Shown here: positions 15,288 to 57,582 of the stretch, piece by piece
How the letters are laid out: every line of letters starts with the position of its first letter
Position numbering within the stretch: the stretch's first letter is position 1
Assembly: GCA_035540375.1 (NCBI GenBank)
Contig: DATLGO010000008.1
Coordinates: forward strand, 1-64,000
Reading direction: 5' to 3'
From: Candidatus Thermoplasmatota archaeon
Lineage (GTDB): Archaea; Thermoplasmatota; SW-10-69-26; JACQPN01; JAJPHT01
Length of the DNA stretch: 64,000 bases
Program-made: the position numbers and the translations under genes
The notes under the pieces: model-generated
Database searches by the model: none
The model's input: only the letters and a program-made list of their open reading frames with translations
Told to the model about the DNA's origin: nothing

Positions 15288-15757
15288 CGGACCTTGCGGG
15301 CGACGAAGCCATGCCCATGCCCGACTACCCCGAGTACCGGCCGGGACCCCCGCCGGGCGACCGGCCCATGGAGCCCCGCGAAAGCATGTTCCAGAACCCC
15401 GTCTACGAACCCCCCAGGCAAGGCGGCTACGCCCCCGGGATGCGCGGAGAGCAGATGACGCGCCAGGCCTTCGGGACGCGCGGCCTCTACTGGGCCGTGA
15501 TCCTCGCCGCGGGCGCGCTCGCGATCACGCTGCTCCTCAGCGTGTTCGTCGACACCGCCGGCGGGCTGAGGGCGCTCCGCTTCTTCGCGGGCCTCGCGAT
15601 CCTCGGCCTCGCGGTCGTGCTCGTGGGAGGCGCGTTCTTCGGCGAGATCGCGCCTGACATCGTCCGCGCGGGCATGCTCGTCGCGGGCGCCATCCTGCTC
15701 ACGTCGTTCATCTCGACGATGCTGAGCGTCGGCACGGTCACGGGCTTCTTCCCGTGA
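15284..15757 (+). CDS. small membrane protein with Pro-rich N-terminus
   Basis: Protein of 157 residues: a hydrophilic Pro/Met/Tyr-rich N-terminal tail of about 60 residues, then three hydrophobic segments (YWAVILAAGALAITLLLSVF is the first). No known family recognised. It starts by GTGA overlap with the EamA gene, so the two are coupled; ATG 15311 is an alternative start. Its last 20 bases overlap the 3' end of the convergent thermosome gene, a rare true convergent overlap here. Confidence 0.65.
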   Translation: MTDLAGDEAMPMPDYPEYRPGPPPGDRPMEPRESMFQNPVYEPPRQGGYAPGMRGEQMTRQAFGTRGLYWAVILAAGALAITLLLSVFVDTAGGLRALRFFAGLAILGLAVVLVGGAFFGEIAPDIVRAGMLVAGAILLTSFISTMLSVGTVTGFFP

Positions 15758-17369
15758 GGTCCTCCCGCCGCGCGGTCGCGATGACGTCGTCGATCCTGAG
15801 GATCAGGGTCGCGACCTCCGCGGCCGTCGCGACGGACTGGACCTTGACCCTCAAGGGCTCCACCACGCCCGCGGACCACGCGTCGAACGTCCCGCCCGTC
15901 GCGACCTCGACGCCGTGGTCCCGCCGACCCGCCGCGTGCGCGGCTCGCACGGCGGTCACGGCCTCGAGCGGATCCCGCCCCGCATTCTCCGCGAGCGCGC
16001 GGGGGATCTCCTCGAGCGCGGCGGCGAACGCCTCGTAGACGAGCGCGCGACGCGCGTCGAGCCTGCCGGCCTCGTCGCGCACGGCGCGCGCGGCCTCCGC
16101 TTCAGCCGCTCCCGCCCCGGGGACGATCGGGTCGTCCGCGAGCGCCGTCCGCGCGACGCCGAGCGCGTCCTCGAGCGTTCGCGCCACCTCCTCGACGGAT
16201 TCCTCCGACGCGCCGCGGACGCGGAGGGTCACCGATCGGGCGCCCCCGCCCCCCGTGACGAGCACCTCGGGCGCGCCGCCCTCCCGCGCCTCCTCGACGA
16301 GCGACGCGCGGCCGAGATCGGCCTCGCCAACCTCCCGCGGATTCGCGACCGGCCTCGCGCCCGTCGCGCGCGCGAGGGCGGAAAGCGTCTCGCCGCCCAC
16401 GCCCGCGACGAGGAGGATGCCCGAGCGCGCGAGGAGGTCGATCGCCCGATCGTCCACCCTTTTCTCGACGAAGATCGCGGTGGCCCCGCTCGACGCGAGC
16501 GAGGAGACCGCGCGCGCGACGCGCGTCTCCTCCTCCGCGACGAAGGCCTCGTGGGCGCGCGGGTCCGCGAGGCGGAGGGTCGCCGCGCGCGCGGGCTTCG
16601 CGGCCGTAAGCGCGCCCTCGACGAGCGCGACGCGGGCCTCCGCGACGAACCGCGGCATCGCCTCGCTGGCCCGGGCCTTGTCGAGGACGACGCCCTCGAC
16701 GAGGTCGGTCGCGGCGAGCGCTCGACCCGCGAGCTTCGCGAGGCGGACGTGCGAGAGGTCCGCGCGGCGGCCGTCGGCAACGGCGAGGACCGCCCGGACG
16801 GCGAGGTCGGCGAGCCGCGTCGCCTCCGGCGCGGCGGCCTTCGAGGCCATCGCGGTGGCGGCGACGCGCCGCAGCGCCTCCTCGCGGCCCCCGGGGGCCT
16901 CCCGCGCGAGGCCTTCGAGCGCGCGCGTCGCGACGGCGGCCGCGTCGCGGAAACCCTCGGCGAGCGCTGTCGCGTGGAGGTCGTCCGCGAGCGTCTCGGC
17001 GTGTCGGAGGAGCTCGCCCGCGAGGACGACGGCCGTCGTCGTGCCGTCGCCCAGTTCGCGCTCGAGCGTCGCCGCGGCCTCGACCACCATCCGCGCGGCG
17101 GGATCCGAGACGTCCATCCCGCGGAGGATGGTCGCGCCATCGTTCGTGACGCTCACCTCGCCCGCGCCGTCGACGAGCATCTTGTCGAGGCCCTTCGGGC
17201 CGAGCGTGGAGCGCACGGCGTCGGCGACGGCCCGCGCGGCCATGACGTTCGCGGCCCGGGCGTCGCGCCCGCGCGGTCGCCCGACCCCGTCCGCCCGGAA
17301 GGATGCGTCGCGCATCATGGTGGTCCGCGCGCGATCGCCTCGCGCGTGCATCACGATGTCGCCCATCAG
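15738..17369 (-). CDS. thermosome (group II chaperonin) subunit, divergent
   Basis: Chaperonin subunit of 543 residues. Conserved: [38 protein letters not shown], and the ATP-binding [15 protein letters not shown] near residue 95. The apical and intermediate regions are unusually Ala/Arg-rich and diverged, and the C-terminus ([28 protein letters not shown]) is family-typical. It should form double rings that fold proteins with ATP. ATG 17369 overlaps the stop of the Nudix-like gene (TGATG). A second, more canonical subunit probably exists elsewhere in the genome; that is inference. Confidence 0.9.
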
Positions 17370-55163: not shown

Positions 55164-55883
55164 ATGGTCGGTCGGCGCAATCCCTTTCCGTGCGACCCGC
55201 GCTCGGCCCTCGTGGACCGCCCCTTCCTCGCCGGCGTGCGCGCGATGCTGCCGGTCACGTTCGCGATGCTCCCGTTCGCGATCCTCCTCGGCGTCACGGC
55301 CGCGAACCTCGGGTGGCCGTGGTGGCGGGTCCTGCTCCAGTCCGTCTTCATCGTCGCGGGCGCGGCGCAGCTCGCGATGGTGCGCCTCCTCGACGAGGGC
55401 GCGCCCGCGATCGTCGTCATCGCGACCGCCGCGCTCATCAACCTCCGCTTCGCGATGTACGGCGCCGCCCTGCGCCCGTGGTTCGCCGGCGCGCCGCGGC
55501 GCCTGCGCGCGCTTGTGGCCTACGTCCTCACGGACCAGGCCTTCGCCGTCGGCACGCGCGACATGCCCGCGCTCGAGGCGAAGGACCGCTGGCCGTTCTA
55601 CCTCGGAAGCGCCCTCACGCTTCCCGTCATGTGGTTCACGGTCACGACCGCGAGCGCCATCGTCGGCGCGCGCCTCCCCGCCGCGTGGCCGCTCGAATTC
55701 GCGGTCCCCCTCACGTTCCTCGCGCTGCTTGCGCCCGCGCTCAGGACGCGCGGCGCCTGGATCGCCGCGGGCGCCGCGGGCGCGATTGCGACCGCGGCGG
55801 CCGTCCTCCCGTACAACGTGAACCTCCTCCTCGGCGCCCTCGCGGGCATCGGGCTCGGCGCCGCCTTCGAGGTGAAGCGGTGA
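55164..55883 (+). CDS. azlC: AzlC-type branched-chain amino acid exporter subunit
   Basis: Large subunit of the AzlCD/LIV-E family, 239 residues, about seven membrane segments. GVRAMLPVTFAMLPFAILLG, LINLRFAMYGAALRPWF and VLTDQAFAVGTRDMP are typical (the LRH..YG..L signature reads LRFAMYGAAL). It exports branched-chain amino acids or analogues. ATG 55164. The next gene azlD starts within its stop codon (GTGA). Confidence 0.9.
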   Translation: MVGRRNPFPCDPRSALVDRPFLAGVRAMLPVTFAMLPFAILLGVTAANLGWPWWRVLLQSVFIVAGAAQLAMVRLLDEGAPAIVVIATAALINLRFAMYGAALRPWFAGAPRRLRALVAYVLTDQAFAVGTRDMPALEAKDRWPFYLGSALTLPVMWFTVTTASAIVGARLPAAWPLEFAVPLTFLALLAPALRTRGAWIAAGAAGAIATAAAVLPYNVNLLLGALAGIGLGAAFEVKR

Positions 55884-56197
55884 ACGAGGCCGACTTCTGG
55901 ATCGTGCTCGTCGGCGCGGCCGTCGCGACGTACGCCGCGCGCGCCGTCTTCCTCGTGCCCGACGCGACGAAGCCGCCCGCGCGCTTCGAGCCCGCGCTCC
56001 GGCTCGTCGGCCCCGCCGTGCTCGCGGCCCTCGCGATCCCCGCGATCCTCCGGGCGCCCGGGACCGGGTCCTTGGACCTCGCGCGCGTCGTCTCAGGGGC
56101 GATCGCTTTCGGCGTCGCCTGGCGGACCAAGAGCGTCGCGTGGACGATCGTGGCGGGCTTCGCGGCGCTCGTCGCGGCGAGCGCCGCTTGGCCTTGA
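55880..56197 (+). CDS. azlD: AzlD-type small subunit
   Basis: Small membrane subunit of 105 residues: WIVLVGAAVATYAARAVFLV, ALRLVGPAVLAALAIPAILR and a final hydrophobic segment fit AzlD (TY..R..P pattern altered to TYAARAVFLV). Acts with AzlC as one exporter. GTG start overlaps the azlC stop. The last gene on this strand before the hairpin region. Confidence 0.88.
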   Translation: MNEADFWIVLVGAAVATYAARAVFLVPDATKPPARFEPALRLVGPAVLAALAIPAILRAPGTGSLDLARVVSGAIAFGVAWRTKSVAWTIVAGFAALVAASAAWP

Positions 56198-56212
56198 CGC
56201 GGTCCAGCTTCC

Positions 56213-56314
56213 GCCCGAAGCCCTGCGGGCTTCGGGCTCGACTCGACATGGACGAGGCCTTTGATCGCGCTGTCGCGCGATCAAAGGTTGCTCACCGTGC
56301 CTGCGGGCACGGTG
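56213..56314. other. three consecutive strong hairpins between azlD and tfb
   Basis: Three perfect inverted repeats in about 100 bases. First: GCCCGAAGCCC / GGGCTTCGGGC, 11-base arms, loop TGC (56213-56237). Second: CCTTTGATCGCGC / GCGCGATCAAAGG, 13-base arms, loop TGTC (56258-56287). Third: CACCGTGCC / GGCACGGTG, 9-base arms, loop TGCG (56293-56314). They may be bidirectional terminators for the convergent azlCD and tfb transcripts, or one structured RNA. No long reading frame crosses them. Confidence 0.65.
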
Positions 56315-56338
56315 GCCATCTAGTGCCGCCTCCAGGCG

Positions 56339-57286
56339 TCACAAGATGATGTCGATGTCCAGCTTCTCCGCGAGTTCCTTGTACCGGTTGCGGATCGTGA
56401 CCTCGGTCACGCCCGCCACGTCGGCGACCTCGCGCTGCGTGCGGCGCTCGCCGCAGAGGATCGACGAGATGTAGAGCGCGGCCGCCGCGACGCCCGTGGG
56501 GCCGCGACCGGACGTGAGCTCCTTGTCCGCCGCCTGCTTGAGAATCTCGACCGCCTTGGCCTGGATCTCGCCCGAGAGCTTGAGCTCCGAGCAGAAGCGG
56601 GGGATGTAGTCGATCGGGCTCGTCGGCATGAGCTTCAGCTTGAGCTCGCGCGCGATGAAGCGGTACGTGCGGCCGATCTCCTTGCGGGAGACGCGGCTCG
56701 CGTCGGCGATCTCGTCGAGCGTGCGGGGCACGTTGCACTGGCGGCACGCCGCGTAGAGCGAGGCCGCGGCGACGCCCTCGATGGAGCGGCCGCGGATGAG
56801 GTTCTTCTGGACCGCGCGGCGGTAGACCATGGCCGCGGTCTCACGCACGTTCCTCGGGAGACCCATGCGGCTCGCCATGCGGTCGAGCTCGCTCAGGGCG
56901 AAGGCGAGGTTGCGCTCGGTCGCGTTCGAGACGCGGATGCGGCGCTGCCACTTGCGGAGACGGTAGAGCTGGGCGCGGGACTTCGTCGGGATGTTCTTGC
57001 CGTACGAGTCCTTGTTGCGCCACCCGATCTCGGTCGAGAGACCCTTGTCGTGGATCGTGTAGGTCATCGGGGCACCGACACGGGCGCGCTTCTCGCGCTG
57101 CTCGTGGTCGAAGGCGCGCCACTCCGGGCCCTGGTCGATGAAGTGCTCGTCCAGCACGAGGCCGCAGCTCGAGCACACGAGCTCGCCGCGCTCGTAGTCG
57201 CGGGCGAGGTGCTTCGAGCCGCACTCGGGGCACTGGCTGATCTCCTCGACCTGCTCTTCGGGGTTCTTCGCCTTGGTGTCAGCCAC
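56339..57286 (-). CDS. tfb: transcription initiation factor TFB
   Basis: Archaeal TFIIB homologue of 315 residues. Zinc ribbon [20 protein letters not shown] with CSSCG, B-finger region ([20 protein letters not shown]), then two cyclin folds with the helix-turn-helix [20 protein letters not shown] near the end. It recruits RNA polymerase to TBP-bound promoters. GTG 57286 has AAGGAGATGAC as a likely Shine-Dalgarno. It directly follows gar1, the conserved euryarchaeal gar1-tfb order. Confidence 0.97.
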
Positions 57287-57309: not shown

Positions 57310-57582
57310 TCAGCGGCGGCCGCGCGGCGGGGGGCCGCGGGGGCCGGACCGCTCCGAGGGGAAGAGCGCCTTCCCGACGAGGCGGTGGAACTTCGCGCCC
57401 TTCGCGGGCGCGACGACCAGGTACGGGGCCTTGACGGGGCCGATGACGTCCGCGACGCGCCCCACGGGCTCGCGGCGCTGGTCCACGAGGAACGTGCCGA
57501 CCGGCACGAGGGCGGGCGCCTTCACGATGAGGGAGCCGCGCGCCGTCACGTGGAGGACTTCGCCGGCGGATGTCGTGGCCAT
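57310..57582 (-). CDS. gar1: H/ACA RNA-protein complex subunit Gar1
   Basis: Protein of 90 residues. [40 protein letters not shown] and APYLVVAP match the archaeal Gar1 beta barrel that works with Cbf5, Nop10 and L7Ae in RNA-guided pseudouridylation. The C-terminal Gly/Arg-rich tail (RGPPPRGRR) is typical. Its promoter is the strong TATATAAA element about 80 bases upstream. Precedes tfb by 23 bases. Confidence 0.93.

Follow-up and report, generated by a model that had tools for sequence, protein, structure and literature searches.

The 141-bp gap between azlD and the convergent tfb gene of a Candidatus Thermoplasmatota archaeon contains three tandem perfect hairpins, which probably constitute a diverged, stand-alone array in the 3' untranslated region of azlCD, acting as RNA through transcription termination, 3'-end protection, or both. 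Elsewhere in this genome, hairpins are enriched at the 3' ends of genes, show a loop preference with a strand bias relative to the upstream gene, and form composite arrays with covarying modules; hairpin 1 of the azlD trio fits one of the repeated modules.

Three perfect hairpins between azlD and tfb

The genome (labeled G000 here) comprises 3.13 Mb in 110 contigs, is 97% complete, and has a G+C content of 72%. The window, i.e., the whole 64,000-nucleotide stretch analyzed here, is part of its contig 8 (77.8 kb). The closest named relatives of its transcription factor B (TFB) are Thermoplasmatota MAGs, with Thermoplasmatales archaeon SW_10_69_26 among the top TFB identities. The features of the locus are as follows.

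azlC, 55164..55883, + strand: branched-chain amino acid export, large subunit (Pfam AzlC, 2.5e-31); gene model with an unsettled start codon
azlD, 55880..56197, + strand: final gene ahead of the hairpins, overlapping azlC by 4 bp (Pfam AzlD, 1.2e-15)
module H, 56210..56239, + strand: hairpin 1 plus its flanks TCC..TC, from a pattern search
hairpin 1, 56213-56237, + strand: perfect, 11-bp arms, loop TGC within a CCTGCGGG core
hairpin 2, 56258-56287, + strand: perfect, 13-bp arms, loop TGTC, without the family loop or flanks
hairpin 3, 56293-56314, + strand: perfect, 9-bp arms, loop C(TGCG)G in the sense orientation of azlD
tfb (transcription factor B), 56339..57286, - strand: convergent with azlD (Pfam TFIIB, 9.7e-53; Zn_Ribbon_TF, 1.3e-20)
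Gar1/Naf1-like gene, 57310..57582, - strand: on the tfb strand, upstream of tfb (Pfam Gar1, 2.8e-07)

The original prediction of three tandem perfect hairpins between azlD and tfb was reproduced in coordinates, arm lengths and loops, and Pfam supports the AzlC, AzlD and TFIIB/Zn-ribbon assignments of the neighboring genes. The stop codons of azlD (56195-56197, + strand) and tfb (56339-56341, - strand) bracket the trio and bound the gap at 56198-56338. The array begins 15 nt and ends 117 nt downstream of the azlD stop codon, with 20 nt between hairpins 1 and 2 and 5 nt between hairpins 2 and 3. The core said to be common to the first and third hairpins is indeed present in both, as CCTGCGGGC at 56222-56230 and 56300-56308.

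Could such a trio arise as chance palindromes in a genome of 72% G+C? This base composition does lift the background, and Markov sequence yields ~6 to 17 hairpins with arms of at least 9 bp per 64 kb. However, when the 141-bp gap was shuffled 6,000 times with its dinucleotide counts kept exact, 47 shuffles gave one perfect hairpin (arm of at least 9 bp, loop of 3 to 8) and none gave two or more. The gap is also the sole one with three such hairpins among the 402 intergenic regions of 30 to 700 bp in 0.92 Mb of the genome sampled without selection. The fold of a 151-nt stretch is also far more stable than those of its shuffles (z = -6.2 on the + strand and -7.7 on the - strand). Since perfect hairpins of this genome are, moreover, concentrated at 3' ends relative to coding sequence and share loop and flanks, chance is an extremely improbable source; the trio as a whole is no chance product, although hairpin 3 by itself, with its 9 bp, could be. 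A fourth perfect hairpin, with 10-bp arms, lies at 56162-56187 within the coding end of azlD; it was left out of the array because coding sequence has 0.12 perfect hairpins (arm of at least 9 bp) per kb in the unselected sample.

Hairpins at gene 3' ends and their loop preference

Our survey covered ~1.6 Mb of the 3.13-Mb genome: the ~0.92-Mb unselected sample and ~0.68 Mb partly picked for BLAST matches. Perfect hairpins (arm of at least 9 bp) in this genome are concentrated at gene 3' ends. The unselected sample has 16 in convergent gaps and 32 in tandem gaps, compared to 1.6 and 4.2 in first-order shuffles, and 5 in divergent gaps compared to 1.9. Hairpins are commoner in convergent gaps of the sister genus (G001) too, with 4 versus 0.1 in shuffles, though these numbers are small.

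The genome has dozens of dispersed composite arrays, which strongly prefer one loop. In the first sample, hairpins with a loop of either C(TGCG)G or C(CGCA)G and an arm of at least 8 bp numbered 12 in intergenic regions, none in coding sequence, and none in a third-order Markov control. Across the 1.6 Mb, 45 C(TGCG)G hairpins with such arms were found, none of them within called genes. The strand that reads TGCG is the strand of the nearest upstream gene in 38 of 42 scorable cases, compared to ~41% for arbitrary intergenic regions. Repeated copies are not independent, so that this count overstates the sample, and the fairer count of distinct sequences (arm of at least 7 bp) gives 22 sense versus 5 antisense. 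Strand counts were made on the models of a second gene caller; the first had missed a membrane protein gene beside an array. C(UGCG)G is a member of the UNCG class of stable RNA tetraloops. One copy of a dispersed module termed V has C(UUCG)G instead, so the UNCG class is retained. A preference for the UGCG loop was not found among hairpins of the sister genus, where numbers are small.

Dispersed composite arrays

A BLAST search with one array (L108, 8440-8680) gave 67 matches in this genome, 5 in the sister genus and 2 in G003. On the strand of the upstream gene, the module order is CACTCC-[stem]-TCCGTG, then CCAGAGGAGGGG..CCCCTCCTCTGG, more hairpins, and CCAGGGG..CCCCTGG. Often CCCGCGTT comes next and then a T/C-rich tract; CGCGTTTTTTTCTC is an example of the tracts found behind some composite arrays.

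These modules covary clearly. Six pairs of the V module are changed on both sides, and 99% of cells are paired, compared to 25 to 46% once the partners are slid. In a second module, P, covariation is seen both in an outer stem of ~10 bp and in an inner stem, while the UUUCACA bulge and the UGCG loop are invariant. Covariation of this kind is a prediction of selection on the RNA fold, although template switching within a palindrome could also keep the arms perfect. The earlier suggestion of a structured RNA is supported in a modified form, with the covariation signal in the dispersed modules. An Rfam scan of six loci that include composite arrays returned the SRP RNA and two tRNAs, with no match to an array. 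A covariance model, R1, found 27 to 44 matches in this genome and 5 to 6 in the sister genus, with at most single weak matches elsewhere in a phylum-wide search. The best R1 match in G005 resembles coding sequence.

Genes ahead of arrays that were identified by Pfam encode enolase, PdxS, malate dehydrogenase, glutamine synthetase, uL11 and aIF2-beta; others encode an IF5B-like factor, a proteasomal-type AAA ATPase and a transketolase-type subunit, and some arrays sit behind genes without a Pfam match. One array starts 24 nt past the SRP RNA gene, and in the sister genus one lies downstream of a tRNA. Our impression that many host genes are housekeeping genes comes from the genes identified, not from a comparison with a background set.

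Relation of the azlD trio to the dispersed set

The pattern TCCGCMCGAAN{3,20}TTCGKGCTC, which describes module H, has 6 matches in this genome including the window copy; because it was designed with that copy in sight, the independent part is the other five matches. It has none in a reversed control and none in 292 other genomes of the phylum. A BLAST search of this genome and 40 relatives with the 156-bp region of the trio returned the self-match only and no second whole trio. Searching for the units elsewhere in the genome, as had been proposed, therefore succeeded for the module and failed for the trio, and the idea of a repeat family is supported in a modified form: the module of hairpin 1 recurs five more times, and hairpins 1 and 3 contain the TGCG loop sequence typical of the 3'-end hairpins across the genome.

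The three hairpins differ in how well they fit. Hairpin 1 contains the CCTGCGGG core, although the loop of its fold is the triloop TGC. Hairpin 3 has the features of the set, namely, an intergenic location and a perfect stem whose C(TGCG)G loop reads in the sense of the upstream gene. Hairpin 2 falls outside it, with UGUC as its loop in RNA. Neither the CACTCC..TCCGTG linkers nor the terminal CCAGGGG/CCAGAGGAGGGG modules of composite arrays were found in 56198-56338, and R1 has no match at the window array at an E value of 0.1 or below. We read the trio as a diverged, stand-alone member of the set, which is well supported for hairpin 1 and moderately for hairpin 3, with position as the sole argument for hairpin 2. 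Hairpins 2 and 3 may have a common origin with hairpin 1.

The locus in relatives

Among the relatives examined, tfb is conserved. No hairpins of such a kind follow it in G001 to G004, i.e., at 4 of the 5 TFB orthologue loci examined, and G005 has its own array downstream of tfb, whose sequence bears no relation to that of the window trio. No close relative of azlC occurs in the genomes examined, and the azlD-tfb junction is not conserved there. The trio is therefore young or fast changing. The array of G005 (L003, 4916-5320; same place in L087, G005:C22) has four or more long hairpins in tandem, joined by GAA/GA linkers, and adjoins a second copy of the tfb 3' end.

Proposed role and alternative explanations

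No terminator-like site of the bacterial type, a stem with a T-run, was found on either strand of 55800-56500, and on the azlD strand no T-run in 56198-56338 exceeds 3, short of the 4 or more T's of an archaeal U-tract. The U-tract signal at gene 3' ends is weak across this genome, with TTTT at 1.81 per kb sense versus 0.94 antisense. Archaeal terminators are usually U-tracts, linked to aCPSF1, with no hairpin requirement (PMC8716108). A hairpin in Haloferax led to termination of 59% of transcripts in vivo (PMC7237163), and bacterial hairpin clusters without poly-U have been reported to terminate (PMC8355165).

We propose that the azlC-azlD mRNA would include the trio as its 3' untranslated end, where it would act as RNA. 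Three stable hairpins would fold in succession past the stop codon and might cause RNA polymerase to pause or be released, whether or not the archaeal 3'-end ribonuclease aCPSF1/FttA takes part, and the resulting transcript 3' end would be shielded against 3'-to-5' exonucleases. The trio would then belong to a lineage-specific, dispersed set of 3'-end arrays, many other copies of which have TCC linkers and covarying stems.

A different role on the same RNA level is a bidirectional terminator, in which RNA of either strand folds into the hairpins and transcription of both azlCD and tfb halts, as had been offered in the original prediction. The high hairpin density of convergent gaps agrees with it, as do the perfect hairpins on both strands and a minus-strand fold that is at least equally strong. 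However, the TGCG orientation fits the azlD strand alone, like the rest of the set, and no T-run follows any stem on either strand; this one-stranded loop orientation and the lack of a terminator-like T-run make a symmetric bidirectional terminator less likely, and so do the 4 TFB orthologue loci without such hairpins after tfb. We regard it as unlikely, though worth weighing. A structured RNA specific to azlCD or tfb, sensing a metabolite or acting in trans, would explain the strong local structure. It is very improbable, as no Rfam family matched in the window, the ends of unrelated genes bear similar hairpins, and the array lies downstream of both neighbors and is absent from relatives' tfb loci.

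The trio might instead be mobile DNA, a REP/BIME-like repeat with palindromes that a transposase or template switching copies to gene ends and that have no role of their own. Template switching at replication forks can maintain perfect arms without selection. The dispersed near-identical copies behind the 67 BLAST matches, the mosaic order of modules, the several copies at contig ends and the partial duplication of tRNA pieces beside hairpins all point in this direction. On the other hand, the Y1 transposase (PF01797) has no match in the 97%-complete genome, versus matches in 5 of 14 control genomes, and the gene-relative strand bias, the strand-specific UNCG loops and the bulge are expected under RNA-level selection. 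Mobile DNA without a role is accordingly a rather improbable account of the trio, and a 3'-untranslated-region array acting as RNA is the reading that we retain.

Comparison with known systems

Bacterial REP/BIME elements are short extragenic palindromes in mosaic clusters, for which mRNA stabilization and termination have been proposed (PMC3733652, PMC2817692). The dispersed set resembles them as short, clustered extragenic palindromes in many copies, a likeness that extends to the window copy only through hairpin 1. It differs in its archaeal host, in a fixed UNCG-type loop on the gene sense strand with freely varying arms, and in the TCC linkers of the modules read, in place of GTAG/CGTC tags. 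No such tag stands at the foot of the three window stems, and array flanks show, by eye, TCC / TC(G) and CACTCC..TCCGTG. As the tag was not seen in the flanks read and no Y1/RAYT transposase was found in this genome, we do not class the set as RAYT-linked REP.

Bacterial hairpin-cluster terminators (PMC8355165) are likewise clusters of hairpins soon after a stop codon that do not require poly-U, and they have been proposed to stop RNA polymerase. They were described for the bacterial enzyme, whereas the stems here are longer and perfect and come from an archaeal set that is repeated and covaries. Archaeal U-tract/aCPSF1 (FttA) termination also forms 3' ends past stop codons, and the Haloferax hairpin terminates (PMC8716108, PMC7237163); its usual signal, however, is a U-tract without a hairpin, while the window array has no U-tract. 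No description of such an element was found in the literature searched, the coverage of which is incomplete.

A broader possibility, which we put forward tentatively, is that a Thermoplasmatota lineage ends many genes, housekeeping genes included, with a modular, dispersed RNA element that has UNCG-capped covarying stems, a UUUCACA bulge and TCC linkers and would be bound by a dedicated protein. Such an element might form or protect mRNA 3' ends as an undescribed archaeal 3'-end system, of which the window trio would be a reduced copy. Covarying, strand-oriented hairpin arrays after genes in a G+C-rich archaeon would show that archaea, too, can use structured 3' ends, and the UGCG loop and UUUCACA bulge offer a concrete motif for seeking a binding protein. 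How a BIME-like repeat spreads when its genome has no detectable Y1 transposase is a further question raised here.

Other features of the array loci

Array copies lie at the ends of G000 contigs C11, C34, C53, C57, C58, C77, C86 and C104; the repeats therefore probably break the assembly and lead to an underestimated copy number. Long composite arrays that look near-identical occur in G003:C20 (L157, L161) and in G000:C104 and C109 (L184, L183). Their likeness in two genomes of different families suggests a recent transfer or a contaminated bin. Several composite arrays have degenerate GGGACCGGGTCC-type repeats on the gene-distal side, as at 8060-8370 of L108. Within 15560-15990 of L112, an intact tRNA gene (15694-15767, - strand) has repeats of parts of itself on either side, and each of these pieces holds an inserted hairpin (NACGAATC..GATTCGTN) at the identical point of the tRNA sequence. 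By eye, TGCG-loop hairpins also adjoin inverted or repeated 3' ends of neighboring tRNA genes in L202 (8650-9150) and L207 (2400-2750).
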